This document shows, in pieces, positions 39,837-58,571 of a DNA stretch of 64,000 nucleotides. Both the position numbers and the translations under genes were made by a program. The notes under the pieces are model-generated. The model worked only from the letters and a program-made list of their open reading frames with translations. It had not been told where the DNA came from and searched no databases. Origin of the DNA: Roseiarcus fermentans (GTDB taxonomy: Bacteria; Pseudomonadota; Alphaproteobacteria; Rhizobiales; Beijerinckiaceae); contig NZ_QNRK01000013.1 in assembly GCF_003315135.1 (NCBI RefSeq), positions 62,001 through 126,000 on the forward strand, read 5' to 3'. The stretch's first letter is position 1. Each line of letters starts with the position of its first letter.

Positions 39837-40241
39837 TCACGGAGCTTGCGGTTTTTGATGCCCGAGCGCCCAGACATAGGCGACGACCGCGTCGACGTCG
39901 CCCGGAGCGAGCCGGCCGTCCATGCCCGGCGCCATCTTCATGTTGTGCCCGATGGTCGTCTTGATCGCGGTCACGCTGCCGTCGCCCCAGATCCACATGC
40001 CGAGCGTCAGATCGTTGCCGTTGGCGGTGCCTTTGGCGTCGGCGCCGTGGCATTGGGCGCATTTTCCCTCCGCCGCCTCGCCGTGGAAGATCTTGTCGCC
40101 AAGCAGAACCTGCTCGCGCGTTCCGCCCGGCGGAACGGGCAGCGTGTTGGGGTCGAGCCGTCCCTGGTCTGCGATCGCCATGTCCGGGGCCGCAACGGCC
40201 AAGACCAGCGCGACGCCGCTTACGACCGTCCTGCGCGACAT
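39837..40241 (-). CDS. Small periplasmic cytochrome c
   Basis: The 134-residue product has a signal peptide (MSRRTVVSGVALVLAVAAPDMAIA) and one haem-binding CAQCH in KCAQCHGADAKG, with HNMKMAPGMDGRL supplying the probable Met ligand. It diverges from xoxF, with about 300 bases between the starts. A role in carrying electrons from methanol oxidation (as cytochrome cH or an extra acceptor) is plausible but inferred from position. A GGAGG-rich ribosome site precedes the start. Confidence 0.85.
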   Translation of the reverse strand: MSRRTVVSGVALVLAVAAPDMAIADQGRLDPNTLPVPPGGTREQVLLGDKIFHGEAAEGKCAQCHGADAKGTANGNDLTLGMWIWGDGSVTAIKTTIGHNMKMAPGMDGRLAPGDVDAVVAYVWALGHQKPQAP

Positions 40242-40543: not shown

Positions 40544-42256
40544 ATGGCGAAATTTGCGAACGCGCTCCTCGCGAGCGCGGCAGGAGCTTTGTGTGTCGCC
40601 GCCGGGCTGGTTTCGGCCGCGGCGAACGATTCGGTGATCAAGGGCGGCCAGGACCCGAACGAGTGGGCGGTCTATGGCAAAGACTACGCGAATACGCGCT
40701 ATAGCCCTCTGAAGTCGGTTAACACCAGCAACGTCGGCAATCTCAGGCTCGCCTATTCATTCCAGCTTGGATCGCTGCGCTCGAATGAATCGACGCCGCT
40801 GGTTATCGGCGACACGATGTACGTGTCAACTTCCTGGGGCCCCAAGTACGTCTACGCGATCGACGCAGCGACTGGCGCGCGCAAGTGGACCTACGAGCCC
40901 GACATGCCCGACGACACGCTGCAATTCGCCTGCTGCGACGTCAACAGCCGCGGCGTGACCTATGCGGACGGCAAGCTGTTCGTCGGCCGTCTGGACGGCA
41001 AGCTCGTCGCGCTCGACGCCAAGACCGGCAAGGAGCTGTGGAAAGCCGACGTCGTCGACTACACGCAGGGATCGGTCATCACGTCCCCCCCGCTGGTCGT
41101 CAAGGACAAGGTCATCACCGGCTTCGGCGGCGGCGAATACGGCGCGCGCGGCTCGCTCCAGGCCTACGACATGAATACCGGCAAGCAGGTGTGGAAGACC
41201 TACACCGTTCCGACGAAGGACCAGCCGAACGGCGACACCTGGAAGGGCGACACGGCGCAGCACGGCGGCGGCGCGGCCTGGCTGGTCGGCTCCTACGATC
41301 CCAAGACCAACACCGTCTTCTGGGGCACCTCGAACCCGGGCCCGTGGAACACCGCCGTCCGTTCGACCGGCGACGGCGCCATGGGCAAGCTCACCAACCT
41401 CTACACCGCATCGACGCTGGCCCTCGACGCCGACACCGGCGCGATCAAGTGGTGGGTGCAGGGCACGCCGGAAGACGCCTGGGATTACGACGGGGTCAAC
41501 GAACTCGTTCTCGCCGACCTCAAGATAGACGGAGAGACGGTGCCGGCAATGATGAAGGCCGACCGCAACGGGTTCTTCTTCGTGACCAACCGCGAGACGG
41601 GCAAGGTGCTCTCGGCCGAGAAATACGTGCCGACCAACTGGGCCGAGAAGTGGGACGTCAATACGCTGCGCCCGATCGAGGTCGCCGACAAGCGCCCGGG
41701 ACCGAATCATCCGGCCAAGGGCATCTGCCCGAACCTGATCGGCGGCAAGAACTGGCAGCCGATGTCGTTCAGCCCGGACACCGGCCTTGTCTACATCCCG
41801 TCCAACAACGTGTGCATGGACTGGTCGGTCGGCGACGTCTCCTACAAGCGCGGCGTCTTCTATCTCGGCGCCGAGTTCCCGACCCACGAGGGCGACGGAT
41901 ACAACGGCGAACTGATCGCCTGGGATCCGGTCAAGCACGAGAAGGTCTGGGGCCTGAAGTCGGACCTGCCGTTCAACGGCGGAACGCTGACCACGGGCGG
42001 AAACCTCGTGTTCTGGGGCGACCTGCACGGCGACTTCCGCGCGCTCGACGCCAAGACCGGGCAGGAGCTGTTCAAGAAGAACCTCGGCTCCGGCATCGGC
42101 GCGGGCCCGATCACCTACTCGGTGAACGGCAAGCAGTATGTCGCGGTCGTGGTCGGCCGCACGGCTGCGATCCCGGCGTTCCTCGGCGACCTCGGCAAGA
42201 AGATGACGGCGGCGACCCCGGAAGGCGGCGCGCTGTTCGTGTTCGCCCTCGACTGA
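40544..42256 (+). CDS. xoxF: Lanthanide-dependent methanol dehydrogenase
   Basis: The 570-residue periplasmic quinoprotein oxidises methanol using PQQ and a lanthanide. A signal peptide (residues 1-27, ending VSAAAND) precedes an eight-bladed propeller. The vicinal Cys130-Cys131 pair (FACCDV) forms the disulfide next to PQQ. AWDYDGVNE carries Asp314 (catalytic base) and Asp316, the extra Asp that marks lanthanide-dependent XoxF; calcium MxaF has Ala there. No mxaI-like small subunit gene is nearby. It is the first gene of the xox run; the fused XoxJ-cytochrome gene starts 25 bases later. Confidence 0.95.
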   Translation: MAKFANALLASAAGALCVAAGLVSAAANDSVIKGGQDPNEWAVYGKDYANTRYSPLKSVNTSNVGNLRLAYSFQLGSLRSNESTPLVIGDTMYVSTSWGPKYVYAIDAATGARKWTYEPDMPDDTLQFACCDVNSRGVTYADGKLFVGRLDGKLVALDAKTGKELWKADVVDYTQGSVITSPPLVVKDKVITGFGGGEYGARGSLQAYDMNTGKQVWKTYTVPTKDQPNGDTWKGDTAQHGGGAAWLVGSYDPKTNTVFWGTSNPGPWNTAVRSTGDGAMGKLTNLYTASTLALDADTGAIKWWVQGTPEDAWDYDGVNELVLADLKIDGETVPAMMKADRNGFFFVTNRETGKVLSAEKYVPTNWAEKWDVNTLRPIEVADKRPGPNHPAKGICPNLIGGKNWQPMSFSPDTGLVYIPSNNVCMDWSVGDVSYKRGVFYLGAEFPTHEGDGYNGELIAWDPVKHEKVWGLKSDLPFNGGTLTTGGNLVFWGDLHGDFRALDAKTGQELFKKNLGSGIGAGPITYSVNGKQYVAVVVGRTAAIPAFLGDLGKKMTAATPEGGALFVFALD

Positions 42257-42281: not shown

Positions 42282-43535
42282 ATGGGTTTCGGAATCATGC
42301 ACAAAGCGGTCGCTGTCTCCGCCTTGGTCGCGGCGTCCTGCGCAAGCGTTTCGCGCGCGCAGGACGCGCCGGCCAGACCTCTGCGCCTATGCGCGGATCC
42401 GACCGACTTGCCGTTCTCGAGCGACGATCCGGCCAAGCCGGGCCTCTACCTCGAGATCGGCGAGGCCATCGGCCGGGCGCTCGGGCGTCCGGTCACGCAT
42501 GTCTGGTATCGCACCTACTTCGGCAAGCGCGCCGTGCGCGTCACCATGCTCGCCAAGCAGTGCGACGCAACCATCGGCCTGCCCGACAGCGCCGACTTCA
42601 TGGGGCCTCGGGTCATTTTCTCGAAGCCGCTGTTCCAGTTGGGCTACGCCATCGTGACGCCGAAAGAGGCGCCGCTCGCGAGCGTGGAAGCGCTCAAGGG
42701 CAAGCGAGTCGCCGTGCAGTTCGAGAGCGAGCCGCAGAACATCGTCGGCCCGCGCGACGACATCGAGGCCGTCACCGTGCTTTCGCCCGAGGAGGGCATG
42801 ACGGCGCTCGCCGACGGCCGCGCCGACGCGGCCTTTGTCTGGGCGCCGATCGCCGGCTATCTCAACAAGACCGCGTACGACGGGCGTTTTGCGATCGTCC
42901 CGGTCGACGGTCCGCGGCTGAATTATCCGACCGCGATCGGCTTTCCCAAGGAAGCGAAGGATCTGCGCGACGCCGTCGACGCCGTGCTCCCGGAGGTGTC
43001 GAAATCCTTCCCGGCGCTTCTCTCCAGGTACGGGGTCGCGCCCGACGGTCCCGTGACCGCGGCGGCCGACAACGCCGCCGTGGTCGAGAAGGCCGCCGTG
43101 GTGGTTGCGCAGAACGCGCCTTCCGACGCTCACGCCGCGGCCTCGACTCCGGCCGGCGCCGCTGCGCCGAGCCAGACCGCGTCTCTCGACGCAGGGGGCG
43201 GCAAGGATCCCGGCAAGCCGGCCGGCGACGGGACGGGCGAATTCGACATCGCCCCCAAAGCGCCGCCCACCACGCCCGAACTCGTCGCCGAGGGCAAGGA
43301 AGTGTTCAACGGCACCTGCGCGCATTGCCACGGCCCCAACGGAGAGCAGAGCGTCAAGAAGATCGACCTGCGCCGCCTGACGCTCCGCTACAGCGACGGG
43401 GCGCACAACATGTACTGGAAAACCGTCCATGAAGGCCGCCCGACCAAAGGCATGCCGACGTGGAAGGACGTGTTCACCGACGAACAGTTCACGCAGATCT
43501 TCGCCTACCTGTCGACGATCCAGTCGACCGAGTAG
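42282..43535 (+). CDS. XoxJ-cytochrome c fusion (XoxJ plus XoxG-like domain)
   Basis: The 417-residue product has a signal peptide (ending VSRA, residue 26), then an XoxJ-type periplasmic-binding domain (about 32-250; LRLCADPTDLPFSS, WYRTYFGKRAVRVTML). A flexible Ala/Pro/Gly linker (about 255-315) leads to a class I cytochrome domain with haem motif Cys346-Ala-His-Cys349-His350 and a probable axial Met391 (KGMPTW). In Methylobacterium xoxG (the cytochrome acceptor) and xoxJ are separate genes. Here one polypeptide probably accepts electrons from XoxF and supplies the XoxJ role; a cytochrome cGJ fusion is known from Methylacidiphilum. A GGAGGAGA site precedes the ATG. Confidence 0.9.
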   Translation: MGFGIMHKAVAVSALVAASCASVSRAQDAPARPLRLCADPTDLPFSSDDPAKPGLYLEIGEAIGRALGRPVTHVWYRTYFGKRAVRVTMLAKQCDATIGLPDSADFMGPRVIFSKPLFQLGYAIVTPKEAPLASVEALKGKRVAVQFESEPQNIVGPRDDIEAVTVLSPEEGMTALADGRADAAFVWAPIAGYLNKTAYDGRFAIVPVDGPRLNYPTAIGFPKEAKDLRDAVDAVLPEVSKSFPALLSRYGVAPDGPVTAAADNAAVVEKAAVVVAQNAPSDAHAAASTPAGAAAPSQTASLDAGGGKDPGKPAGDGTGEFDIAPKAPPTTPELVAEGKEVFNGTCAHCHGPNGEQSVKKIDLRRLTLRYSDGAHNMYWKTVHEGRPTKGMPTWKDVFTDEQFTQIFAYLSTIQSTE

Positions 43536-43704: not shown

Positions 43705-44910
43705 ATGATCACGAGACGTTCGTTGTTGCAATCCGGCGCCGCGGCGGCGGCCTTGGCCGCGGGTCCACGGGCGGCGCGCGCCGCCACGTCGGGCGCCGCC
43801 GACCCGGAGATCAAGATCGGCCAGACCATGCCTTATAGCGGCCCGGAGTCCGCCTATGGCGTGATCGGCCGCACCGAGGCGGCTTATTTCAAGATGATCA
43901 ACGATCGGGGCGGCGTCAACGGACGCAAGATCAATCTGATCAGCCTCGACGACGGCTACAGTCCGTCCAGGACAGTCGAGTTGGCGCGCCGACTGGTCGA
44001 GGACGAGAAGGTGGCCTTCCTCTTCAATACGCTCGGCACCGCGCCGAACCTCGCGATCCGGCAATATCTCAACGAGAACCAGGTCCCTCAGCTGTTCGTG
44101 GCGACCGGCGCGAACCTGTTTGCCGACCCGGCGCGCTATCCCTGGACGATCGGCTACAATCCCAGCTACCAGACCGAGGCGCGCGTCTACGGCAAGCATA
44201 TCCTGGCGACCCGGCCGGATGGCAAGATCGCGGTCCTGTTCCAGAATGACGGATTCGGCAGGGAATATCTGGACGCCCTCAAGGAGACGCTCGGCGACAA
44301 GGCCGGCGCGATGATCGTCAAGGAGGCCTCCTACGAGACCAGCGAGCCGACCGTCGACTCGCAGGTCGTGACCCTGCAGGGCTCGGGGGCCGACATCTTC
44401 GTGATCGTTGCGACGCCGAAATTCGCGGCCCAGGCGATCCGCAAGTCGTACGATCTCGGCTGGAACGGCGCGCGGTATCTGAGCAATGTCTCGCCGTCGG
44501 TCGCGGCCGTCCTGAAGCCGGCCGGGCTCGAGAAGTCGAAGGGCCTGATCACCGACGGTTACATCATCGACGTCAACGATCCGCACTGGAAGGACCAGCC
44601 GTCGCTGCAGGACTGGAAGGCTTTCACCGACAAATACATGTCGGCGAAAGAGTATGGCGACGCCAACGCGGCCTACGCCTTCGGCGCGGCCGCGACCATG
44701 GTTCAGGTGCTCGAGCAGTGCGGAAACGACGTGTCGCGCGAGAACGTGATGCGGCAGGCGGCGAACCTGAAGGCGTTCGCCGCGCCGATGCTCATCCCGG
44801 GCATCAAGGTCGACACGTCGCCCGACAATTTCAGTCCGATCCGCGAGCTGCAGCTGCTGAGCTTCGACGGGACGAGCTGGCGGATGGAGGGGCCCGTCGC
44901 CCACGACTGA
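43705..44910 (+). CDS. Liv-type ABC substrate-binding protein, orphan
   Basis: The 401-residue product has an apparent Tat signal (TRRSLLQSGAAAAALAAG, Arg4-Arg5) and a type I periplasmic-binding fold of the branched-chain amino acid (LivK) family: KIGQTMPYSGPESAYGVIGR, LISLDDGYSPSRTVELARRLV, GYNPSYQTEARVYGKH and a C-terminal GIKVDTSPDNFSPI. It has no permease or ATPase next to it. Lying between xoxJ-cytochrome and the TonB receptor, it may bind a small ligand of the methanol/lanthanide system, but the ligand is unknown. A GAAGGAG-like site precedes the start. Confidence 0.82.
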   Translation: MITRRSLLQSGAAAAALAAGPRAARAATSGAADPEIKIGQTMPYSGPESAYGVIGRTEAAYFKMINDRGGVNGRKINLISLDDGYSPSRTVELARRLVEDEKVAFLFNTLGTAPNLAIRQYLNENQVPQLFVATGANLFADPARYPWTIGYNPSYQTEARVYGKHILATRPDGKIAVLFQNDGFGREYLDALKETLGDKAGAMIVKEASYETSEPTVDSQVVTLQGSGADIFVIVATPKFAAQAIRKSYDLGWNGARYLSNVSPSVAAVLKPAGLEKSKGLITDGYIIDVNDPHWKDQPSLQDWKAFTDKYMSAKEYGDANAAYAFGAAATMVQVLEQCGNDVSRENVMRQAANLKAFAAPMLIPGIKVDTSPDNFSPIRELQLLSFDGTSWRMEGPVAHD

Positions 44911-44999
44911 CGACGGGGAACCGCCGATGCGCGGCGATCGGGAGATGCTCCCGGCGCGCCATGACGACAAGGCGTAGGCGCCGGGAGGAAGCGGAGAAA

Positions 45000-47315
45000 A
45001 TGACCGAGTCGCCGTGTCGGATCCGCCATGCGCTGGCGCTCTGCGGACTCGCCCTGTTCGCGTGGGAAGCGAAGGCGGACACGATCCAACTGCCGACCTT
45101 CGACGTCGTCGCCACCACGCCGCTCGGCGGGGGAGAGATCGATGTGTCGAGGGTTCCGGGCGCCGTGTGGCAGACGGGCGCCGCCGACATCCAGACCTTC
45201 CACGATTCGACGCTACCGGAAACGTTGGCGCGTCAGGCGCCGGGCGTCACGGTCGGCAATGTCTCGGGCAACGACTTCCAGCCGGACGTCAGCTACCGAG
45301 GCTTCACCGCTTCGCCCGTCAGCGGAACGCCGATCGGCCTCGCCGTCTATCAGAACGGGGTGCGCATCAACGAGGCGTTCGGCGACACGGTCAACTGGGA
45401 CCTGATCCCCGAGAACGCGATCGACAAGATGGCGATCGTGTCCGGCGATCCGATCTACGGCCTCAACGCCCTCGGCGGCGCACTGAACGTCACGATGAAG
45501 AACGGCTTCACCTGGCAGGGATTCGAAGCCGACTTGCGCGGCGGCTCGTTCTATCGCGGGCAGGTGGAGCTTCAGTACGGCAAGCAGGTCGGCGACTGGT
45601 CCGTCTATATCGCGGGCACGCAGATCAACGACGGCGGCTGGCGGCAGGACGGCGCTTCGCAACTCAGCAACGTCTACGGCGACCTCGGCTACAAGGCCAA
45701 CGGGTTCGAGTCGCACCTCCAGCTCACCGCGGGCGCCACCCAGTTCGGCGCGGCGGCCTTCACGCCGCTCCAGGAGCTGCAGACCAACTGGCGCAGCGTC
45801 TACACCGTCCCCCAGACGACCGACAACACGATGGGGATGCTCGCCTGGACCGGAACCTACGCCTGGTCGCCGACCCTGAGCTTCCAGGGCGGCGCCTATG
45901 TCCGCGCCTTCAACCAGGGCCATGTCGACGGCAACGGGACCGAAGCGTCCTCGTGTGCGCCGTACTCCTGCCTCAACGGCAATCCGGTCAACGACCGGAC
46001 CGGGGCGCCGATTCCGGACATCTCGGGGAACGGCGCCTACGACCTCGGCGAGATCGACCGGTCCTGGACTCAGTCGCGCTCGCTCGGCGGTTCTGCGCAG
46101 GCCGTCGACACCGACACGATCTCCGGCCACGACAACACCTTCACGGCCGGCGCCTCGCTCGACTACGGCTGGACGAATTTCACCGGAAACAGCCAGCTCG
46201 GCGTCGTGCCCGGCTTCGTCGACAATGCGTTGCCGGTCATCGGCTTCCCGTTTGTGATCGACCAGCCCGACAGCTACCTCGCCCCGGTCGCGGTCAAGGC
46301 CAACGCCACCTATGTCGGCCTCTACGCGCTCGACACCTTCAACGCGACCGACCGGCTGGCGCTGACCGGCGGCGCGCGCTTCAACTTCGCGGGAATCAAT
46401 CTTTCCGGCGGGAACGGCGCCTTCACCAACGGCTACTCGACCTACTTCCACGTCAACCCGACCGTCGGCCTCACCTACAAGCTCACCCCCGACGTCAACC
46501 TCTACGTCGGCTACGCGATGACCAATCGCGCGCCGACGCCGCTCGAGCTCGGCTGCGCCGATCCCGAAAAACCCTGCATCATCGACAATTTCCTCGTCTC
46601 CGACCCGGCGCTGAAACAGGTGATCGGCCAGACGGTCCAGCTCGGAGTCCGCGGGCGGAACGATCTGGCGCAATGGGGCGAGCTGCATTGGTCGGCGGGC
46701 CTGTTCCGCACCACGCTCGCCAACGACATCCTGCCGGTTCAGAGCGCGTTCACCGGCTTCGGCTACTACACCAACGTCGGCACGACCCTGCGCCAGGGCG
46801 CGGAGGCGGCGGTCCAGTGGACCGGCGAGCGGTGGTCGGCCTACGCCAACTACACCTACATCGACGCGGTCTACCTAACGACGTTCATGGAGCCGTCGCC
46901 GTACAACCCGCTCGCCAACGCGAGCGGAGAGATTCCGATCACCAACGGCATGCCGATCGCCGGCATTCCGAAGAATACGGTCAAGGTCGGCTTCGACTAC
47001 GCCGTGACCCCGAACTGGAAGGTCGGCGGCGATCTGGTCGCGGCCTCGGCTCAGGTGATCACAGGCAACGAGAACGGCGCGCTGCCCCAGGTTCCCGGCT
47101 ACGCGATCTTCGGCGTGCACACCTCCTATCAGGTCGGAAAACAATTGCAGGTCTATGGGCTCGTCCAGAATATTTTTGACCAGCGCTATTATACGGCCGG
47201 CGCCCTCTACGACACCACGTCGTTTCCCAACGCGGCGCCGTTCCTGACTGACCCCAGGACGTACGCGCCCGGGAAGCCCTTCGCCGTCTACGCGGGTCTG
47301 AAATACACACTGTGA
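45000..47315 (+). CDS. lutH: TonB-dependent receptor, probable lanthanide-complex uptake
   Basis: The 771-residue outer-membrane protein has a signal peptide (to about residue 28, WEAKA), a plug domain (ETLARQAPGVTVGN, DVSYRGFTASPV, NALGGALNVTMKNGF) and a 22-strand barrel ending in AVYAGLKYTL with an aromatic-rich end. The position beside xoxF and dedicated exbB-exbD-tonB genes points to LutH-like import of a lanthanide chelate. The ATG at 45000 has GGGAGG then GGAG upstream; the frame extends back to 44718 only across the preceding gene. The name is by context; no metal ligands can be shown. Confidence 0.85.
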   Translation: MTESPCRIRHALALCGLALFAWEAKADTIQLPTFDVVATTPLGGGEIDVSRVPGAVWQTGAADIQTFHDSTLPETLARQAPGVTVGNVSGNDFQPDVSYRGFTASPVSGTPIGLAVYQNGVRINEAFGDTVNWDLIPENAIDKMAIVSGDPIYGLNALGGALNVTMKNGFTWQGFEADLRGGSFYRGQVELQYGKQVGDWSVYIAGTQINDGGWRQDGASQLSNVYGDLGYKANGFESHLQLTAGATQFGAAAFTPLQELQTNWRSVYTVPQTTDNTMGMLAWTGTYAWSPTLSFQGGAYVRAFNQGHVDGNGTEASSCAPYSCLNGNPVNDRTGAPIPDISGNGAYDLGEIDRSWTQSRSLGGSAQAVDTDTISGHDNTFTAGASLDYGWTNFTGNSQLGVVPGFVDNALPVIGFPFVIDQPDSYLAPVAVKANATYVGLYALDTFNATDRLALTGGARFNFAGINLSGGNGAFTNGYSTYFHVNPTVGLTYKLTPDVNLYVGYAMTNRAPTPLELGCADPEKPCIIDNFLVSDPALKQVIGQTVQLGVRGRNDLAQWGELHWSAGLFRTTLANDILPVQSAFTGFGYYTNVGTTLRQGAEAAVQWTGERWSAYANYTYIDAVYLTTFMEPSPYNPLANASGEIPITNGMPIAGIPKNTVKVGFDYAVTPNWKVGGDLVAASAQVITGNENGALPQVPGYAIFGVHTSYQVGKQLQVYGLVQNIFDQRYYTAGALYDTTSFPNAAPFLTDPRTYAPGKPFAVYAGLKYTL

Positions 47316-47349
47316 CGCGCGACGCGCACGTCGGGAGCGAAACGAGGCG

Positions 47350-48015
47350 ATGGCCATGCAGGGTTTGGATCTTTCCCCGGTCGGGCTGTTCCTGTCGGCG
47401 GGCCTCGTCGGCAAGGCGGTGATGGCCGTGCTGTTCGCCGCCTCGCTGTGGTGCTGGGTGCTGATCGTCGAAGGCGTGGTGTCGGTCGTCCGTCTCGGCC
47501 GAGCGGTGCGCGCCGCCCGTTGCGGCGAGACCGTGGCGTCGCTCGCCGGCGTCGTCGCCGCGGGCGAGGCGGAGGCCCACCGGCGCATCGCCGGCGAGAC
47601 GGTGAGCGAGGTGCGGGCGCGGATCGCCGACGGGATGGCCCGGGCGGCGCGGGAACTCATCGCCCGCGCCGAGGGCGGCCTGCCCAATCTCGCCGTCATT
47701 TCCTCGGTGGCGCCGTTCGTCGGACTGTTCGGCACGGTCTGGGGCATCATGTCGAGCTTCGCCGCGATCTCCCAGGCCAACGACACGAGCCTCGCCACCG
47801 TCGCGCCCGGCATCGCCGAATCGCTTGCCGCGACCGCCTACGGGCTCGCCGCGGCGATTCCCGCATCGATCGGCTACAACCGCATCGGCGCCGCCTTCGC
47901 CCGCCTCGGCCAGGAGATGGCGTCTTTCGTCGAGGAGCGCGCGATCGCGCTCGTCTCTCGCCCGGCCGAGGTGGTTCGTGAGGCGAATCCTCGCCGCCGC
48001 AGCGAGGCGCCGTGA
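47350..48015 (+). CDS. exbB: ExbB/TolQ-family proton-channel protein
   Basis: The 221-residue product has three membrane segments: [45 protein letters not shown] and [19 protein letters not shown]. These are the MotA/TolQ/ExbB signature regions. With ExbD and TonB it uses the proton gradient to energise the outer-membrane receptor just upstream. The next gene's ATG overlaps this stop (TGATG). Confidence 0.9.
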
Positions 48016-48467
48016 TGGCGACGCCGCCCCGGAAGATCGGCGAAGGCCTCTACCAGCCGCTGGCCGAGATCAACGTGACGCCGCTCGTCGACGTGATGCT
48101 GGTGCTCCTGATCATCTTCATGGTGACCGCGCCGATGCTGGCGGCCGGGATCAAGGTCAACCTGCCGGCGGCCAGGACCGCTCGGCCGCTCGACGCCAGG
48201 GACCCGGTGATCGTCGCCGTGACCAGGGACGGCGCCGTATCGGTCGGCAAGGACGCCGTATCGCGCGACGGGCTCGTCGCCGCGGTCGAGGCGCGGCTCG
48301 CCGATTCGAACGGCGTCGTGCAACTGCGCGGCGACCGGGAGGCGGCCTATGGCGACGTCCTGTCGGTGATGGACGACCTCGCCGCGGCGGGACTGAACCA
48401 CATCGCGATCGTCGCGAACGGGCGGCGCGCCGCTCCGCCTCCGGCGGACCCGGCGACCCGCCGATGA
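48015..48467 (+). CDS. exbD: ExbD-family protein
   Basis: The 150-residue product has one N-terminal membrane helix with the conserved Asp26 of the proton path ([19 protein letters not shown]) and a periplasmic domain ([21 protein letters not shown], then [10 protein letters not shown]). A GTG at 48012 is also possible but the ATG at 48015 gives the usual coupled TGATG junction with exbB. The tonB start overlaps its stop by 4 bases. Confidence 0.92.
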
Positions 48468-49315: not shown

Positions 49316-50225
49316 CCTCTCGCGCCTGCGGGCGCTCGTCCTCGGCTCGGGCGGCGGCGGCGGCGTCCCCCAATGGAACTGCGCCTGCCGAGTCTGCCGC
49401 CTCGCCTGGGACGGCGACCCGCGGGTGAAGCCGCGCACCCAGTCGAGCCTCGCGGTCAGCGCCGACGGCGAGCGCTGGCTGCTGCTCAACGCCTCGATCG
49501 ACCTGCGCCAGCAGATCCTCGCGACGCCCGCGATGCAGCCGAAAGGCCGGGGCCGGCAGTCGCCGATCGCCGCCGTGCTGCTCACCAACACCGACGTCGA
49601 TCACGCCGCCGGACTGCTCGCCTTGCGCGAGCGCCAGCCGTTCACGATCTGGGGCACGCGCGCGACGCTCGACACGATCGGCGCGAACCGGATCTTCGAC
49701 GTCGTCGGTCCCGACATCGTCGCGCGCCGCGCCGTCCGCCTCGGCGAACCGTTCGAGCCGCTGCCGGGCCTCGCCGTCGAACTCTTCCCGGTGCCGGGAA
49801 AGGTTCCGCTCTGGCTCGAGGAGGGCGACGTCGAGACCGACGCCATCGGCGAAGGCACGGTCGGCGTTGCGGTCGAGGCCGGCGGGCGCAGGCTCGTGTA
49901 TGCGCCGGGATGCGCCCGCGTCACCGACGCCCTGCACGAGCGCATTGCGAGCGCGCACGCGCTGTTGTTCGACGGCACCCTGTTCACCGACGACGAGATG
50001 ATCGCGAGCGGCCTCGGCGAGAAGACGGGCCGCCGCATGGGCCACAGCCCCGTGTCCGGGCCGGGCGGAACGCTCGACGCGCTGGCGCGGCACGCCGACG
50101 TCCGCCGCATCCTCATCCACATCAACAATTCCAACCCGATCCTGATCGAAGGGTCGCCCGAAGAGACAACGATCAAGGCGGCCGGCTGGGAAGTCGCCTA
50201 CGACGGAATGGAGGTTACCCCATGA
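49302..50225 (+). CDS. pqqB: PQQ biosynthesis protein PqqB
   Basis: The 307-residue metallo-beta-lactamase-fold protein is thought to hydroxylate the Glu-Tyr-derived intermediate in PQQ synthesis. Features are VLGSGGGGGVPQWNCACRVC with the zinc-site cysteines, TNTDVDHAAGLLALRERQPF, LLFDGTLFTDDEM and HINNSNPILIEGS. The ATG at 49302 overlaps tonB by 14 bases, and its stop overlaps the pqqC start by 4. The frame upstream lies inside tonB in another frame. Confidence 0.95.
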   Translation: MSRTDLSRLRALVLGSGGGGGVPQWNCACRVCRLAWDGDPRVKPRTQSSLAVSADGERWLLLNASIDLRQQILATPAMQPKGRGRQSPIAAVLLTNTDVDHAAGLLALRERQPFTIWGTRATLDTIGANRIFDVVGPDIVARRAVRLGEPFEPLPGLAVELFPVPGKVPLWLEEGDVETDAIGEGTVGVAVEAGGRRLVYAPGCARVTDALHERIASAHALLFDGTLFTDDEMIASGLGEKTGRRMGHSPVSGPGGTLDALARHADVRRILIHINNSNPILIEGSPEETTIKAAGWEVAYDGMEVTP

Positions 50226-50962
50226 ACAGGCCTATCGCGTCCGAACCGCTGAGCCCCGAGGCGCTGGAGGCGGCGCTGCGCGCGGTCGGCCCCGAGCGCT
50301 ATCACGACCTTCACCCGTTCCACGACCTCCTGCACGGCGGCAAGCTGACCAAGGGGCAGGTGCAGGCCTGGGCGTTGAATCGCTACGTCTACCAGGCGGC
50401 GATCCCGCGCAAGGACGCGTCTCTCATGGGTCGTTGCGACGACCGGGAGCTGCGCCGCGAATGGCTGCATCGCATCACCGACCACGACGGGTTCGGCGAG
50501 GACAAGGGCGGCGTCGAGCGCTGGCTGATCCTCACCGACGGACTCGGGCTCGACCGCGACTATGTCGTCAGCCAGGAGGGCGCGTTGCCGGCGACCAAAT
50601 TCGCCGTCGAGGCCTACGTCCATTTCGTGCGCGAGAAGCCGCTGCTGGAGGCGGTCGCATCGAGTCTGACGGAATTGTTCGCCCCGTCGATTCACCGCCA
50701 GCGGATCGCCGGCATGCTGGCGAATTACGACTTCATCGACGAGCGGGTGGTCGCCTATTTCCGGCGGCGGCTCGACCAGGCGCCGAAGGACGCGGACTTC
50801 GCGCTCGACTACGTCAAGCGCAACGCCCGCACGGTCGCCGAGCAGAAGGGCGCGCTCGCCGCGCTGACCTTCAAGACCGAGGTGCTGTGGGCGCAACTCG
50901 ACGCGCTGCATCACGCCTATGTGTGCGGGGCGATCCCGCCCGGCGCATTCCGGCCGGAGTGA
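50222..50962 (+). CDS. pqqC: PQQ synthase PqqC
   Basis: The 246-residue cofactorless oxidase performs the last ring closure and oxidation in PQQ synthesis. Conserved parts are YHDLHPFHDLLHGGKLTKGQ, ALNRYVYQAAIPRKDASLM, HRITDHDGFGEDKGGVERWL, LTELFAPSIHRQRIAGMLAN and FALDYVKRNARTVAEQ. Its ATG overlaps the pqqB stop by 4 bases, and pqqD starts 4 bases after its stop. Confidence 0.97.
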   Translation: MNRPIASEPLSPEALEAALRAVGPERYHDLHPFHDLLHGGKLTKGQVQAWALNRYVYQAAIPRKDASLMGRCDDRELRREWLHRITDHDGFGEDKGGVERWLILTDGLGLDRDYVVSQEGALPATKFAVEAYVHFVREKPLLEAVASSLTELFAPSIHRQRIAGMLANYDFIDERVVAYFRRRLDQAPKDADFALDYVKRNARTVAEQKGALAALTFKTEVLWAQLDALHHAYVCGAIPPGAFRPE

Positions 50963-50966
50963 CACG

Positions 50967-51236
50967 ATGGAGACGTCAGCCAAGCCGCGGCTGCCGCGCG
51001 GCGTCAAACTTCGCCACGACGATGTCCGCCAGCGCTGGACGCTCTTGGCGCCGGAGCGGATCTTCGAGGTCGACGGCACGGCCGCGGCGGTGCTGCAGCT
51101 CTGCGACGGCGAGCGCGATCTCGGGCGGATCGTCGCCGAGCTCGCAGCCCGCTACAATGCCCCGCCGGCCATGATCGAGAAGGACGTGGTCGCGATGCTC
51201 GGCGATCTCGAGGCCAAGAGGGTGCTGGACCTATGA
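50967..51236 (+). CDS. pqqD: PQQ peptide chaperone PqqD
   Basis: The 89-residue winged-helix-like protein binds the PqqA peptide and presents it to Pqq[41 protein letters not shown] and [16 protein letters not shown] are PqqD-typical. The stop lies in a run of three near-identical 20-base units that also contain the pqqE start. Confidence 0.95.
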
Positions 51237-51281
51237 CGCAGGTGCTGGAGCCATGAAGAAGGGCGCTGGAAGCATGACCGC
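51221..51281 (+). repeat. Triplicated ~20-bp start region of pqqE
   Basis: Three imperfect copies (GGTGCTGGACCTATGA, GGTGCTGGAGCCATGA, GGCGCTGGAAGCATGA) with a 20-21 bp period, each ending in an ATG. The first ATG (51233) opens a 7-codon mini-ORF overlapping the pqqD stop and ending at 51256. The second (51253) and third (51274) are in-frame pqqE starts. Confidence 0.75.
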
Positions 51282-52374
51282 GCTTGCGCCGCCGATCGGC
51301 GTCCTCGTCGAGCTGACTCATCGCTGCCCGCTCGGCTGCCCGCACTGCTCGAATCCGCTCAAGCTCGAACCCCCGGCCGCGGAGCTCGACACGGAGACGT
51401 GGAAGCGCGTGTTCGAGGAGGCGGCGGCGCTCGGCGCGCTGCACGTGCACCTGTCGGGCGGCGAGCCGACCGCGCGGCGCGACATCGTGGCGTTGACGCG
51501 CCACGCCGCGCAATGCGGGCTGTACACCAATCTCATCACCTCCGGGATCGGGGTCGGCGAGAGACTGTGGGGCGGGCTGGTCGAGGCGGGCCTCGATCAC
51601 GCGCAGCTTTCGTTCCAGGGCGCCGACGAGGGGACCAATGACCGCCTCGGCCATTACGACGGCGCGTGGGCGAAGAAGCGCGCCTTCGCGGCGATGGTGA
51701 CGACGGCCGGCGTGCCGCTGACGGTCAACGCGGTCGTGAGCCGTCCCAATCTGCATCAGGTCAGCGCCTTCATCGACCTCGCGCTCGAGCTCGGCGCCCG
51801 GCGCCTCGAAGTGGCGCACACGCAATATTACGGCTGGGCGCTCGCCAACCGCGCCGCGCTGATGCCGGCGCTGAAGGAGACCGAAGAGGCGATCCGGCTG
51901 GTCGAGGCGGCGCGGCCGAAGCTCGCCGGCCGGCTGGTCATCGACATGGTCGTGCCCGACTATTACGCGCGCTACCCCAAGCCCTGCGCGGGCGGATGGG
52001 GGCGGCTCGCGATCAACGTCTCGCCGTCCGGCAAGGCGATGCCCTGCCATGCCGCCGAAACGATCCCGGGCCTCGAATTCTGGAATGTGCGCGACCGCTC
52101 GCTCGCCGAGATCTGGGCCGACAGCCCGGCCTTCAACGCCTTTCGCGGGACGGACTGGATGCGCGAGCCGTGCCGGACCTGCGACCGGAAGGAGATCGAC
52201 TTCGGCGGCTGCCGCTGCCAGGCGCTGGCGCTCGCCGGCGACGCCGCCGCCACCGACCCGGCCTGCTCGAAGTCGCCCCTTCACGCGCGCATCGGGCGGA
52301 CGGCGGCGGCCGAGGCGGAAGCCGGCTCCGAGGCGATCCGCTGGCGCTCGTACAAGGCGGCGCTCGAGGGCTGA
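51253..52374 (+). CDS. pqqE: PQQ radical SAM enzyme PqqE
   Basis: The 373-residue radical SAM enzyme cross-links Glu and Tyr side chains in PqqA. The iron-sulfur/SAM motif is Cys25-x3-Cys29-x2-Cys32 in [17 protein letters not shown], followed by [13 protein letters not shown]. The C-terminal SPASM region shows [20 protein letters not shown] and [21 protein letters not shown] with auxiliary cluster Cys. The start may be 51253 or 51274, because the initiation region is triplicated; PPIGVLVEL after the second is the family N-terminus. Confidence 0.95.
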
Positions 52375-53483: not shown

Positions 53484-54771
53484 CCGGCTGTCCTTGTCCT
53501 TTCCGTCCGCCGATCATGGCGGCGGGCGCCGGCGCGCGCAACCCGCGCCATCCCCTCGTCCTGCGGGACGACCGCTTGGCGAGCGCCTCGGGTTCGCGGC
53601 CGCGCTCGTCCTCGCCGCGCTGCTCGGGATCGCGCCCGCCGCCCACGCCGATCCGCTCGCCGTCAGGGTCGGCGTGCTCCGGCAAACCCATTCGCGCGAC
53701 ACGATCTCGATCCTCGACATCCCCGCCGCCGACGATTTCGTCGCCGGGGCGAAGCTCGCAATGGCCGACGACAACACGACCGGGAGATTCCTCGACCAGT
53801 CGTTCGCGATCGAAGACGTGAAGCTTGCTCCAGGCGACGACGCGGCCGCGGCGGCGAAAACGCTTCTCGACTCCGGGATCGGCTTTCTGATCGCCGATCT
53901 GCCGGCGGACGCGCTCCTGAAGGTTGCCGACCTCGCCCGCGCAGGCCGCGCCCTGGTGTTCAACGCCGGCGCGCCGGACGAGCGGCTGCGCGAGGAGGAC
54001 TGCCGCGCCAACCTCGTCCACGTCGCGCCGTCGCGGGCCCAGCTCGCCGACGCCCTCGCCCAATACCTGATCTGGAAACAATGGCCGAAATGGCTGCTCG
54101 TCGTCGGCTCCCATCCCGAGGACGTCGCGCTCGGCGAGGCTTACGAGCGGGCGGCGCGGAAGTTCGGCGCGAAGATCGTCGAGAAGCGGACCTACGCCGA
54201 CGCCGGCGGCGGACGGCGCTCGGATTCGGGCGTCGTGCAGACCCAGCGCCAGATGCCCGTGTTCACCCAGAAGGCCCCCAATTACGACGTGCTGGTCGCC
54301 GCCGACGAGAACCAGGTGTTCGCCGGCTACCTGCCCTACCGCACCTGGGACCCGCGCCCGGTCGCGGGCTCCGGCGGTCTCATGCCCACGAGCTGGGACG
54401 CCTCGCACGAGCTGTGGGGCGCCGTGCAGTTGCAGAACCGCTTCGAGCGCATGGCCCATCGCGGCATGAACGCCCGCGACAATCAGGCCTGGGTGGCGAT
54501 GCGGATGATCGGCGACGCCGTCAACCGGACGAAGTCCGCCGACCCGCAGGCGGCGCGCGACCTGATGCTGTCGCCCGACTTCGACGTCGCCGACTTCAAG
54601 GGCGTGAAGCTGACCCTGAGGCCCTGGAATCTCCAGCTTCGCCAGCCGATCCTGCTGACCGACGGGCGCGGCACGGTCAGCGTCTCGCCGCAGGAAGGCT
54701 TTCTTCATCAGGTGTCGGAGCTCGATACGCTCGGCCTCGACCAGCCGGAGACGAAATGCAAGCTCAAGTGA
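53458..54771 (+). CDS. lutA: Periplasmic binding protein of a lut-type ABC system
   Basis: The roughly 437-residue product is of the 'PQQ-dependent alcohol dehydrogenase system' ABC binding-protein type. A hydrophobic signal (LGFAAALVLAALLGIAPAAHA) is followed by VRVGVLRQTHSRDTISILDI, AGAKLAMADDNTTGRFLDQS, LIADLPADALLKVADLA and AADENQVFAGYLPYRTWDPR. The start is uncertain: the ATG at 53458 is the last in-frame ATG before the signal, but lies within the antisense gene and leaves a long Arg-rich n-region; a TTG at 53494 is an alternative. With LutE/LutF it likely imports lanthanide. Confidence 0.85.
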   Translation: MARAISRRIRLSLSFPSADHGGGRRRAQPAPSPRPAGRPLGERLGFAAALVLAALLGIAPAAHADPLAVRVGVLRQTHSRDTISILDIPAADDFVAGAKLAMADDNTTGRFLDQSFAIEDVKLAPGDDAAAAAKTLLDSGIGFLIADLPADALLKVADLARAGRALVFNAGAPDERLREEDCRANLVHVAPSRAQLADALAQYLIWKQWPKWLLVVGSHPEDVALGEAYERAARKFGAKIVEKRTYADAGGGRRSDSGVVQTQRQMPVFTQKAPNYDVLVAADENQVFAGYLPYRTWDPRPVAGSGGLMPTSWDASHELWGAVQLQNRFERMAHRGMNARDNQAWVAMRMIGDAVNRTKSADPQAARDLMLSPDFDVADFKGVKLTLRPWNLQLRQPILLTDGRGTVSVSPQEGFLHQVSELDTLGLDQPETKCKLK

Positions 54772-54781
54772 AGCGCGCGAG

Positions 54782-54955
54782 ACCCCTTCCCCAGCTTGCT
54801 GGGGAAGGTGGCCGAAGGCCGGATGGGGTGTGGCCCGCTGCATTGACCCCAGTCGGACTGCGCGACCGGCGCCCCGAACCTTCGTGGGACCATGCGCTGC
54901 TTTCCTCACCCCATCCGGCCTCCGGCCACCTTCCCCGCTTCGCGGAGAAGGGGAA
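54782..54955. repeat. Long palindromic repeat at the lut beta-propeller start
   Basis: Left arm CCCCTTCCCCAGCTTGCTGG, then GGAAGGTGGCCGAAGG and CCGGATGGGG; right arm CCCCATCCGGCCTCCGGCC, ACCTTCCCCGCTTCGCGGAG and AAGGGG. The arms are about 48 bp and near-complementary around 77 bases. It differs from the copy A-D family. It fills the gap after lutA and runs into the signal-peptide region of the next gene. Confidence 0.85.
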
Positions 54956-55910
54956 GCTCGCCCTGCTTGCCCTGGCGCTGGCCGCGACCGGGCCGGCCCT
55001 CGCCGGCGCCGCCTACGTCACCAACGAGAAGGGCGATTCGGTCTCGATCATCGACACCGCGAAGATGCAGACGACGAAGACCGTCGCGATCGGCCAGCGT
55101 CCGCGCGGGCTCGCGCTCTCGAAGGACGGCGCCTTCCTGTTCGTCTGCCTCGGCGACGACGACACGATCGCGATCCTCGACACGAAGTCGCTTCGGATCG
55201 TCGGCGCGCTGCCGTCCGGTCCGGACCCGGAGCAGCTTCGGCTGAGCCCCGACGGCGCGACCCTGTTCGTCGCCAACGAGAACGACGCGCTCCTGACCGC
55301 GATCGACGTCGCCTCGCGCAAGGCGATCCGCGAGACGCCGGTCGGCGTCGAGCCGGAGGGCGTCGCGGTCAGTCCGGACGGCAAGACGGTGGTCGTCACC
55401 TCCGAGACGACCAGCATGGCCCATTTCATCGACTGGCCGGGCGGCGAGTCGGTCGCCAATATCCTCGTCCCCTCGCGTCCGCGCTTCGCCGAATTCAAGC
55501 CGGATGGCGCGGAACTCTGGGTGAGCTCGGAAGTGGGCGGCAAGATCTCGGTGATCGATCCCGTCAGGAAGGCGGTCGTCCAGACGTTCGCCTTCGACGT
55601 TCCGGGCCTGCGCAAGGAGGCGATCCAGCCGGTCGGCATCCGCTTCACCCGCGACGGCAGGCTCGGCTTCGTCGCGCTCGGGCCGGCGAACCGGGTCGCC
55701 GTCGTGGATGGCGCGACCAAGGCGGTGCTCAAGTACATTCTCGTCGGGCAACGCGTCTGGCACCTCGCGCTGACCCCGGATGACACGCAACTTTACGCCA
55801 CCAACGGCGTCAGCAACGACGTCACCGTCATCGACGTCGCCTCGCTGAAGGCGCTGAAGTCGATCCCCGTCGGGTCCTACCCGTGGGGCGTGGCGATCGC
55901 CGGGCCATGA
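54828..55910 (+). CDS. lutD: YVTN beta-propeller protein of the lut/PQQ cluster
   Basis: The roughly 360-residue product is a seven-bladed YVTN-type propeller of the PQQ-catabolism-associated family: repeated blocks such as AYVTNEKGDSVSIIDT, RPRGLALSKDGAFLFVC, EPEGVAVSPDGKTVVV and YATNGVSNDVTVIDVASLKA. A signal segment (KLALLALALAATGPALA) precedes it. No ATG exists in frame near the expected start; the candidates are GTG 54828 and TTG 54843, both inside the palindromic repeat. Its stop overlaps the ABC ATPase ATG by 4 bases. Role inferred: periplasmic helper of lanthanide uptake. Confidence 0.82.
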   Translation: MWPAALTPVGLRDRRPEPSWDHALLSSPHPASGHLPRFAEKGKLALLALALAATGPALAGAAYVTNEKGDSVSIIDTAKMQTTKTVAIGQRPRGLALSKDGAFLFVCLGDDDTIAILDTKSLRIVGALPSGPDPEQLRLSPDGATLFVANENDALLTAIDVASRKAIRETPVGVEPEGVAVSPDGKTVVVTSETTSMAHFIDWPGGESVANILVPSRPRFAEFKPDGAELWVSSEVGGKISVIDPVRKAVVQTFAFDVPGLRKEAIQPVGIRFTRDGRLGFVALGPANRVAVVDGATKAVLKYILVGQRVWHLALTPDDTQLYATNGVSNDVTVIDVASLKALKSIPVGSYPWGVAIAGP

Positions 55911-56686
55911 ACGAGACCATGGCCCTCGGCGGGGCGGCGGCCGGACCGGCGGCGCTCGCCGTCGAGCGCGTCTCGCACGCCTATGGCGCGCGCAAGGCGC
56001 TCGACGATGTCAGCTTCTCGGTCCGGCCGGCGACCTTCGCCGTCCTGCTCGGCCTCAACGGGGCGGGCAAGAGCACGCTGTTTTCCGTGATCACGCATCT
56101 CTACGCCGCCCGCGCCGGCGCGGTGCGCATCTTCGGCCACGACGTGGCGCGCCAAAGCGGCGCGGCGCTCGCCGAGCTCGGCGTGGTGTTCCAGAGTCGC
56201 ACCCTCGACCCCGACCTCAGCGTCGAGCAGAACATGCTCTATCAGGGCGCGCTGCAGGGCATTGGACCGCGGCAGGCGCGCGCCCGCGCGCGCGACCTCG
56301 TCGCTCGCATGGGCCTCGCCGACCGACTGAAGGACCGCGTTCGCCAGCTCTCGGGTGGTCAGGCGCGGCGGGTCGAGATCGCGCGCGCGCTCCTGCATGC
56401 GCCTCGTCTGGTGCTGCTCGACGAGCCGACCGCGGGGCTCGACATCAAGGCGCGGGCCGACATTCTGGCGCTCACGCGCCGCCTCGTCGCCGAGGACGGC
56501 GTCGGGGTGCTCTGGACGACGCATCTCGTCGACGAGATCCGCCCCGACGATCAGGTCGTCCTCCTGCACAAGGGCCGTGTGCTCGCCGACGACCGCGCCG
56601 TGGCGGTTATCGCGGCGGCCGGCGCCGACTCGATCGGCGCAGCCTTCTCGCGATTGACCAGCGGCGCCGGCGAGGAGGACGCATGA
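55907..56686 (+). CDS. lutE: ABC transporter ATPase of the lut-type system
   Basis: The 259-residue ATPase has Walker A GLNGAGKST, signature QLSGGQARRVEIARALL, Walker B LVLLDEPTAGLD and a switch His in TTHLVDEI. VVFQSRTLDPDLSVEQNMLYQ is typical of the PQQ-dehydrogenase-associated ABC family. It overlaps both the propeller gene and the permease by 4 bases, so binding protein, propeller, ATPase and permease form one coupled unit. Confidence 0.9.
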   Translation: MNETMALGGAAAGPAALAVERVSHAYGARKALDDVSFSVRPATFAVLLGLNGAGKSTLFSVITHLYAARAGAVRIFGHDVARQSGAALAELGVVFQSRTLDPDLSVEQNMLYQGALQGIGPRQARARARDLVARMGLADRLKDRVRQLSGGQARRVEIARALLHAPRLVLLDEPTAGLDIKARADILALTRRLVAEDGVGVLWTTHLVDEIRPDDQVVLLHKGRVLADDRAVAVIAAAGADSIGAAFSRLTSGAGEEDA

Positions 56687-57522
56687 GCGTGGCGGCGCGC
56701 GACGCGCGCCGGCCGTTCGGCCTCGCCGCCTACCTCGTCTGCCTGCAGGGCATCGTCTGGCGCGAGAGCCTCCGCTTTCTCCATCAGCGCGAGCGATTCG
56801 TCTCCGCGCTGGTCAGGCCTTTGGTGTGGCTGTTCATCTTCGCCGCCGGCTTCCGCCAGACGCTCGGCGTCTCGATCATCCCGCCCTACGAGACCTACGT
56901 CCTCTACGACGTCTACATAACGCCCGGCCTGATCGCGATGATCCAGCTGTTCAACGGCATGCAGTCGTCGCTGTCGATGGTCTACGACCGCGAGATGGGC
57001 TCGATGCGCATGCTGCTCGTCAGCCCCGCCCCACGCTGGTTTCTGCTGACCTCGAAACTGCTGGCCGGCGTCGCGGTGTCGATCCTGCAGGTCTACGCCT
57101 ATCTCGTCATCGCCTATCTCTGGGAGATCGAGCCGCCGACCTGGTGGGGCTACCTGACGATCCTGCCGGCGCTGGCGCTGTCGGGCCTGATGCTCGGCGC
57201 GCTCGGCATGGTGCTGTCGTCGCTGATCAAGCAGCTCGAGAATTTCGCCGGCGTGATGAACTTCGTGATCTTTCCGATGTTCTTCGCCTCGTCCGCGCTC
57301 TATCCGCTGTGGCGGGTGCAGGAGGGAAGCCCCTGGCTCGCGACCGTATGCGCGCTCAATCCGTTCACCTACGCGGTCGAGCTGATCCGCTTCGCCTTCT
57401 GGGGGAAGTTCGAACCGCTGTCGTTCGCGGTCGTGCTCGGCTGCACGATCGTGTTCCTCGCCGCTGCGGTCGTCGCCTACGACCCGTCGCGCGGCATGCT
57501 GATGCGCCGAGGCGGCGGATGA
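56683..57522 (+). CDS. lutF: ABC-2-type permease of the lut-type system
   Basis: The 279-residue permease belongs to the ABC-2 superfamily. Membrane segments include LVRPLVWLFIFAAGF, LAGVAVSILQVYAYLVIAYL, LPALALSGLMLGALGMVLSS, FVIFPMFFASSALYPLW and FAVVLGCTIVFLAAAVVAY. SLSMVYDREMGSMRMLLVSP is the conserved cytoplasmic coupling block. Start and stop both overlap neighbours by 4 bases (ATGA); the downstream partner is the binding protein of a different ABC type. Confidence 0.9.
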   Translation: MSVAARDARRPFGLAAYLVCLQGIVWRESLRFLHQRERFVSALVRPLVWLFIFAAGFRQTLGVSIIPPYETYVLYDVYITPGLIAMIQLFNGMQSSLSMVYDREMGSMRMLLVSPAPRWFLLTSKLLAGVAVSILQVYAYLVIAYLWEIEPPTWWGYLTILPALALSGLMLGALGMVLSSLIKQLENFAGVMNFVIFPMFFASSALYPLWRVQEGSPWLATVCALNPFTYAVELIRFAFWGKFEPLSFAVVLGCTIVFLAAAVVAYDPSRGMLMRRGGG

Positions 57523-58568: not shown

Positions 58569-58571
58569 CCG

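Follow-up and report, generated by a model that had tools for sequence, protein, structure and literature searches.

The role of XoxJ proteins is debated, with maturation, docking and regulation under discussion. According to the account in PMC12997753, XoxJ and MxaJ may bind a part-folded apo-enzyme, letting PQQ and the metal in, and PDB entry 9ism is titled an MxaF/MxaJ complex. The closest described relative of the protein considered here is cytochrome cGJ of Methylacidiphilum, named a G:J fusion in PMC6688271. As described there and in PMC8498564, it is a single polypeptide with a XoxJ-type and a cytochrome c part, encoded next to a dehydrogenase of lanthanide type. Two further systems invite comparison. 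Type II quinohaemoprotein alcohol dehydrogenases (1yiq, 1kv9) pair a PQQ propeller with a small haem domain carried by the dehydrogenase itself. ExaF/PedH enzymes, which belong with PedF and PedG, have a lanthanide-type site; in a ped-type cluster of Novosphingobium, PedF and a PedG-like binding protein occupy separate genes, and the latter (our assignment) gives no TIGR03871 match at E 1e-6.

We analysed 64,000 nucleotides of Roseiarcus fermentans (contig NZ_QNRK01000013.1, positions 62,001 to 126,000; hereafter the window), in which a protein with a J-type domain followed by a haem domain is encoded directly behind a PQQ alcohol dehydrogenase. Our search of the open-access literature found no description of such a J-then-haem fusion in Proteobacteria. 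The arrangement resembles cytochrome cGJ in its parts and its setting but differs from it in three respects. By its name and by the description of its operon, cGJ has G before J. Further, Methylacidiphilum is described as having a second, free XoxJ, whereas our search of the source genome gave no further J with an E-value better than 4e-4. The haem domain of our fusion is also not XoxG-like in sequence. With cGJ set apart by description and its order taken from its name, the window's protein has neither a domain of cL type by sequence nor the G:J order. We regard it as a variant of the known G:J fusion with an independent-looking origin. On balance, we think it probable that the fusion is dedicated to the distinct lanthanide-type dehydrogenase encoded upstream, as its assembly or docking factor and as the first protein to accept its electrons, with a C2+ alcohol a likelier substrate than methanol. 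The relevant features of the window are as follows.

39837..40241, minus strand: small cytochrome c of 134 aa, divergent from the dehydrogenase (PF00034; TIGR00782 at 43.3 bits, below cut-off)
40544..42256, plus strand: partner PQQ alcohol dehydrogenase of 570 aa, probably lanthanide-type (TIGR03075, 675.7 bits)
42282..43535, plus strand: J-haem fusion protein of 417 aa, with an ATG start and no internal stop
42372..43037, plus strand: XoxJ/MxaJ-like periplasmic binding domain, residues 31-252 (TIGR03871; PDB MxaJ 9ism and XoxJ 6onp; Foldseek)
43038..43274, plus strand: linker, residues 253-331, most of it predicted to be disordered (pLDDT <50 at 262-319; length varies among relatives)
43275..43532, plus strand: mono-haem cytochrome c domain, residues 332-417 (PF00034)
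43317..43331, plus strand: haem attachment motif C-A-H-C-H, residues 346-350, read from the sequence
43452..43454, plus strand: Met391, candidate axial ligand, read from the sequence
43705-44910, plus strand: Peripla_BP_6 binding protein of branched-chain-amino-acid type, between the fusion and the TonB receptor (Pfam)
44718..48467, plus strand: TonB-dependent receptor (receptor families below their cut-offs), then ExbB- and ExbD-like genes recognised by eye
49425..52374, plus strand: pqqB, pqqD and pqqE (TIGR02108, TIGR03859 and TIGR02109 over cut-off), with a pqqC-like ORF between, recognised by eye
53641..57522, plus strand: ABC system of PQQ alcohol dehydrogenases (TIGR03863, TIGR03866, TIGR03864 and TIGR03861 over cut-off)
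57561-60000, plus strand: NMT1-type binding protein, permease and ATPase

Anatomy and distribution of the fusion

The fusion ORF begins 25 bases after the dehydrogenase stop codon, and its N-terminus looks by eye like a signal peptide. The XoxJ-type NCBIfam model TIGR03871 matches residues 34-252 (E 8e-25), and Pfam Cytochrom_C matches residues 335-413 (E 2e-10). The preliminary description had proposed a XoxJ-like and a haem domain in one polypeptide, and the 417-aa ORF with these matches bears it out. The haem residues that it named (Cys346, Cys349, His350 and Met391) are also where it placed them: C346, H348, C349, H350 and M391 are invariant in an alignment of 30 sequences.

An AlphaFold2 model of the whole fusion, built with 30 related fusions as input, has a mean pLDDT of 80.4. 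By ten-residue blocks, values are 83-98 for the J domain (31-250) and 74-96 from residue 321 on, in the haem domain, which reaches a mean of 92.2 when modelled alone (43257-43532). The predicted protein is thus two confident domains and a flexible linker, with pLDDT <50 at 262-319. In related loci, the stretch between the BLAST-matched domains measures 38-90 aa and has a mean Ala+Pro content of 35%.

The fusion is real, conserved and widespread. Among the best 80 of 124 loci in a contig scan of a genome collection, 79 carry it as a single ORF; in the remaining one (L038, from Roseiarcus) the J half alone is visible and the contig ends there. Bradyrhizobium accounts for 65 of the 80, and the other 15 include Afipia, Rhodopila globiformis and an Acetobacteraceae MAG. 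These counts overturn the earlier impression that such a fusion is unusual in an alphaproteobacterium. When 14 loci from sampled genomes are pooled with the scan, 93 of 94 read as one ORF, L038 again being the exception, and the fusion is consequently no assembly accident of the source genome. The pooled loci are mostly Bradyrhizobium plus duplicates and thus represent non-independent events: the same contig occurs twice in at least four cases (L005/L034, L006/L035, L013/L112 and L157/L053), giving at most 90 distinct loci. The 93 also include L012, counted as a fusion despite an ORF that stops before the Met ligand. The in-frame stop in L012 falls shortly before that ligand, in a 73% complete draft genome (G107), and may reflect either error or decay.

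Within a sample of the family, the fusion occurs in 10 of 149 genomes, and 16 more matched at E 1e-15 in the J half alone. In wider samples, the genomes with a match at E 1e-30 numbered 4 among 385 drawn from the class and 6 among 398 drawn from the phylum; one carrier, G827, belongs to a different class from the window. None of 133 matching plasmid records covers 80% of the fusion query in one place, so these records hold no full-length fusion. In the window's own genus, distribution is patchy (2 of the 6 genomes in the family sample), which suggests loss or transfer. One genome of the family sample, G144, which gave no pmoA-type match, has two copies, of which one (L167) was scanned for protein families. 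Each of its two dehydrogenase-fusion pairs (L167 and L168) has the same kinds of neighbour: genes for a response regulator, a histidine kinase and a FIST protein, and one resembling ExaC, which is partial in L168.

The partner dehydrogenase and its genomic setting

The J gene always has the same kind of neighbour. In all 80 scan loci, a PQQ alcohol dehydrogenase 71-97% identical to the window's lies directly upstream of the J domain. The converse also holds: this dehydrogenase lineage was met at E 1e-140 in seven genomes (6 of 398 in the phylum sample and 6 of 297 in the order sample, five being common to both), and all seven, the source genome included, carry an adjoining fusion. The source genome, which is 99% complete, has one PQQ alcohol dehydrogenase match at E 1e-10 and one strong J. 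Apart from one 153-residue piece in G138 with 84% identity, the remaining PQQ dehydrogenases of 14 family genomes show no more than 46% identity to the window's. Of the 40 dehydrogenase matches, 30 were taken as loci; a later comparison of their sequences left out L130, which has no ORF long enough, and L146. The G138 piece, L146, corresponds to residues 1-153 at the end of contig C771 and overlaps a stretch already found on contig C158 of that genome (97%). G138 may hold a second copy of the fusion-linked dehydrogenase lineage.

We placed the dehydrogenases in a maximum-likelihood tree of 52 rows, for which 11 of 59 rows were dropped (three were contigs of kept rows, the rest thinned without a fixed rule) and four PDB rows added. 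The 22 fusion-linked dehydrogenases form one branch (100/99). XoxF1, XoxF2, XoxF5, cox-linked XoxF3 and MxaF form a separate branch of 23 rows (100/100), while ExaA, PedH and quinohaemoprotein alcohol dehydrogenase form a third of seven (99/97); the root is a midpoint, which leaves the order of the three groups undefined. The tree is without XoxF4 and ExaF, and has one labelled row each for XoxF1 and XoxF2. Its XoxF3 rows were assigned by their cox operon and carry no published label; some xoxF3 operons are described in PMC10875860 as containing cox and ctaG. Judged from this tree, the partner lineage is distinct from XoxF1, 2, 3 and 5, from MxaF and from the ExaA/PedH/quinohaemoprotein group. 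The idea of a partner from XoxF clades 1, 2, 3 or 5 is thus unsupported.

XoxF3 had been a first guess for the partner, because the XoxJ beside xoxF3 in Methylosinus trichosporium OB3b is labelled 'Cytochrome c' in PMC12482762. In two cox-linked loci taken as XoxF3, J and the cytochrome are separate genes; their dehydrogenases share 39 and 41% identity with that of the window, and the tree sets both apart. A study of a Pantelleria metagenome describes 'XoxF6', a group that falls outside XoxF1-5 and whose stated range includes Alphaproteobacteria (PMC7646524). The fusion-linked lineage could be this 'XoxF6', which is known here by its description.

The ligand residues suggest which metal the enzyme uses. 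Residues E198, N264, D314 and D316 of the window dehydrogenase align with the metal ligands of SolV XoxF2, and all four SolV positions agree with PMC11845868, whose kinetics table names MxaF, XoxF, XoxF1, 2, 4 and 5, and ExaF/PedH enzymes. The Glu, Asn, Asp and Asp columns are intact in 22 of 22 fusion-linked rows, and the last Asp is absent from the MxaF, ExaA and 1kv9 rows. The window dehydrogenase, which has both the extra Asp and the Glu and Asn ligands, is therefore probably a lanthanide-type enzyme. In this it differs from the type II quinohaemoprotein 1kv9, which lacks the Asp found at D316 in the window. Further, the 570-aa dehydrogenase has no cytochrome match, and the haem here is on the next gene, that of the J protein.

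Genes nearby fit lanthanide and PQQ use, as judged from their family assignments. We take the ABC genes at 53641..57522 to be of lutA/lutB/lutE/lutF type. The claim that lut-type and pqq genes lie close by was correct, with the ABC system and pqqB, pqqD and pqqE all over their cut-offs. The true start of the TonB receptor probably lies downstream of the listed ORF start, and the receptor and the ExbB- and ExbD-like genes are all conserved in L034. The NMT1-type binding protein, permease and ATPase behind the lut genes have homologues in 9, 7 and 8 of the 80 loci, up to about 6 kb from the fusion. Homologues also occur in L165 and L166 of two f132 genomes, with a weak ATPase match in L165. This transporter may belong to the dehydrogenase-fusion system.

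Affinities of the J and haem domains

The J domain resembles XoxJ and MxaJ and is nevertheless divergent. TIGR03871 is its best NCBIfam family, and it has L-R-x-C-x-D-P and C-D-x-x-I-G stretches in common with XoxJ 6onp. It scores 87.8 bits with TIGR03871 against a curated cut-off of 212.15, and the fusion scores 53.7 bits with TIGR03870 against 258.1, so that neither cut-off is exceeded. Three other fused members reach 91-110 bits with TIGR03871; all four fused proteins thus score 88-110 where 212 are needed, whereas five stand-alone XoxJs pass with 262-308. In a tree of J domains, the XoxJ3, XoxJ5 and MoxJ sequences group together (96/99), and 17 fused members picked for spread branch beside them as their sister group (80/84); the outgroup branches are long. 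The expectation that the N-terminal domain would group with XoxJ is thus borne out in part: it is nearest to XoxJ among the J-type sequences compared, but it lies beside the known groups and not within them. By their sequences, the dehydrogenase and the J domain both appear to mark a lineage apart from the XoxF/XoxJ lines.

The J domain might instead be a binding protein for ligand sensing or transport, with the haem reporting or using the ligand and the dehydrogenase a mere neighbour. Some structural evidence leans this way. PDB sequence scores of the J domain differ by a small margin (MxaJ 35.9, XoxJ 31.8 and an amino-acid binding protein 30.8 bits). When the whole fusion is compared by Foldseek, MxaJ (5sv6 and 9ism_B) appears among many binding proteins, with amino-acid binding proteins fitting at least as well as MxaJ; the 50 matches listed involve the binding-protein half alone. 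Response regulators also lie nearby in 74 of 80 loci. However, the amino-acid binding families score 36.2 bits in NCBIfam, far below the 87.8 bits of TIGR03871. In BLAST comparisons, stand-alone XoxJs score up to 99 bits against the J domain, and the two nearest other binding proteins of its own genome 33-35. In addition, the fusion went with a single dehydrogenase lineage wherever it was encountered, which speaks against a chance neighbour, and we consider the sensing role very improbable.

The haem domain tells a different story from the one proposed at the outset, when it was taken to be XoxG-like. It scores 17.1 bits with the MoxG model TIGR03872, against a cut-off of 147.8, and has no match to the XoxG model TIGR03874 at E 0.01. 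Three cytochromes taken as XoxG by gene position (Azoarcus, cox-linked) also miss the MoxG and XoxG cut-offs, which makes these failures weak evidence on haem type. When a profile built from 22 fused haem domains is searched against PDB structures, the first four include CcoP at 71.4 bits (two haem domains) and 1yiq at 45.3; cytochrome cL 7c90 follows at E 0.003, and 6onq (XoxG) is absent among the 60 of 65 rows listed. In control searches of that library, a MoxG query and a XoxG query do recover cL and XoxG. The C-terminal haem of 1yiq comes first, at 47.3 bits, when an HMM of 94 fused haem domains (L012 left out, L163 added) is scored against 12 references, CcoP not being one of them. XoxG5 of Azoarcus follows at 29.6, PedF at 28.8 and XoxG3 at 27.4 and 23.7, with two further XoxG5 at 16.7 and 15.8 and MoxG at 16.5. 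When the haem domain alone is searched with Foldseek, cytochrome cL and XoxG fit about as well as 1yiq, and no match reached E 0.001. In sequence, then, the haem domain appears nearest to CcoP and to the haem domain of quinohaemoprotein alcohol dehydrogenase, and not to XoxG or cytochrome cL.

These results bear on whether the protein is simply a XoxJ-XoxG fusion of the cytochrome cGJ kind that serves a XoxF methanol dehydrogenase. The XoxJ-like domain and the XoxF-type metal ligands would suit such a role. So would the best PDB sequence match of the dehydrogenase, which is XoxF2 of Methylacidiphilum (466 bits), a genus that also has the G:J fusion. Yet the dehydrogenase lies outside the group of XoxF1/2/3/5 and MxaF, the haem domain is not XoxG- or cL-like by sequence, and the domain order is the reverse of that implied by the name G:J. 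With no Fae in the source genome at E 1e-5 as well, we judge this explanation unlikely.

Electron transfer, substrate and proposed role

We favour a J-haem protein that both assists and drains its dehydrogenase. After export, the J domain would attach to the dehydrogenase in the way that MxaJ binds MxaF, leaving the haem domain free, on its flexible linker, to sit near the PQQ pocket. The haem could then take electrons singly and pass them to a soluble cytochrome and on to the respiratory chain. A haem-carrying J domain could thus remain bound and act as electron acceptor. Functionally, this would resemble a quinohaemoprotein alcohol dehydrogenase with the haem domain shifted from the enzyme onto the helper. 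The preliminary description had allowed for a separate xoxG elsewhere as the true acceptor; a genome-wide search with the MoxG model gave no separate MoxG-type (cytochrome cL) gene over cut-off.

The fusion could otherwise be a relay. The direct acceptor would then be another cytochrome, such as that at 39837-40241, with the fused haem serving assembly, redox sensing or onward transfer. This small cytochrome c gene does adjoin the dehydrogenase divergently, and J-type proteins are thought to act in maturation, as set out in PMC12997753. Against this, a close homologue of the cytochrome was found in 1 of 80 loci (L092; 59% identical, about 5 kb from the fusion), while the J gene is present in 80 of 80. 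The cytochrome count covers up to 6 kb on each side of each locus; for the closest relative, L034, whose sequence starts within the dehydrogenase, the upstream side is out of view. The relay seems to us a rather improbable account. The cytochrome itself resembles the haem domains of CcoP. If the fused haem is the first acceptor, as we prefer, this cytochrome is a possible next electron carrier.

As to the substrate, the genomic evidence favours a C2+ alcohol, for example ethanol, over methanol. The source genome encodes ExaC, an acetaldehyde dehydrogenase (928.8 bits, over cut-off), though on another contig. An ExaC over cut-off adjoins the fusion in G144 and Rhodopila, but ExaC-like genes lie near only 5 of the 80 loci. 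Ethanol-linked neighbours at some loci, together with a lanthanide-type site, recall ExaF/PedH, although PedH sits on a branch separate from the fusion-linked dehydrogenases in our tree, which is without ExaF. Against this, most loci, from Bradyrhizobium, have response regulators and no aldehyde enzyme. Regulators similar to the one in L090 occur in 74 of the 80 loci, and 60 of the 80 have FIST-domain proteins; the best match of the L090 regulator is ErdR, below cut-off, and such regulators are common, making this a weak sign. In G1130, a molybdenum aldehyde-oxidase-type set lies upstream of the fusion in divergent orientation, and G827 has an XdhC-type maturation gene, below cut-off, near its fusion.

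The distribution of Fae is consistent with this view of the substrate. Across 11 genomes searched, Fae was found in six (G138, G056, G044, G144, the fusion carrier G1130 and the non-carrier G126) and was absent from G000, G016, G623, G278 and G827. Six fusion genomes were checked for both Fae and other dehydrogenases. G000 and G016 lack Fae, and the fusion-linked enzyme is the sole such dehydrogenase found in them. G138, G056, G044 and G144 have Fae and also XoxF-type enzymes, a label that is based in G044 on L133 (71-74% identical to XoxF5 rows) and in G144 on a single row of the XoxF3 group. Methanol nevertheless remains a possible substrate where Fae is missing, because Bradyrhizobium growing on methanol is described as oxidising the derived formaldehyde through a glutathione-linked route (PMC12628762). 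Further, G1130 holds the fusion and Fae together.

We tentatively suggest that the dehydrogenase and the J-haem fusion make up an undescribed type of lanthanide system that oxidises C2+ alcohols. It would be a 'split quinohaemoprotein', with a single protein as both assembly factor and electron acceptor, common in Bradyrhizobium and of scattered occurrence elsewhere in the Pseudomonadota; taken as a whole, we hold this to be possible, with some doubt. For the debate on XoxJ, the natural joining of J to a haem domain, in company with one dehydrogenase lineage, suggests that J is still in place at the enzyme when the electrons depart. Should the enzyme act on ethanol-like alcohols, lanthanide-linked oxidation of alcohols in Bradyrhizobium would be broader than the methanol route now studied.
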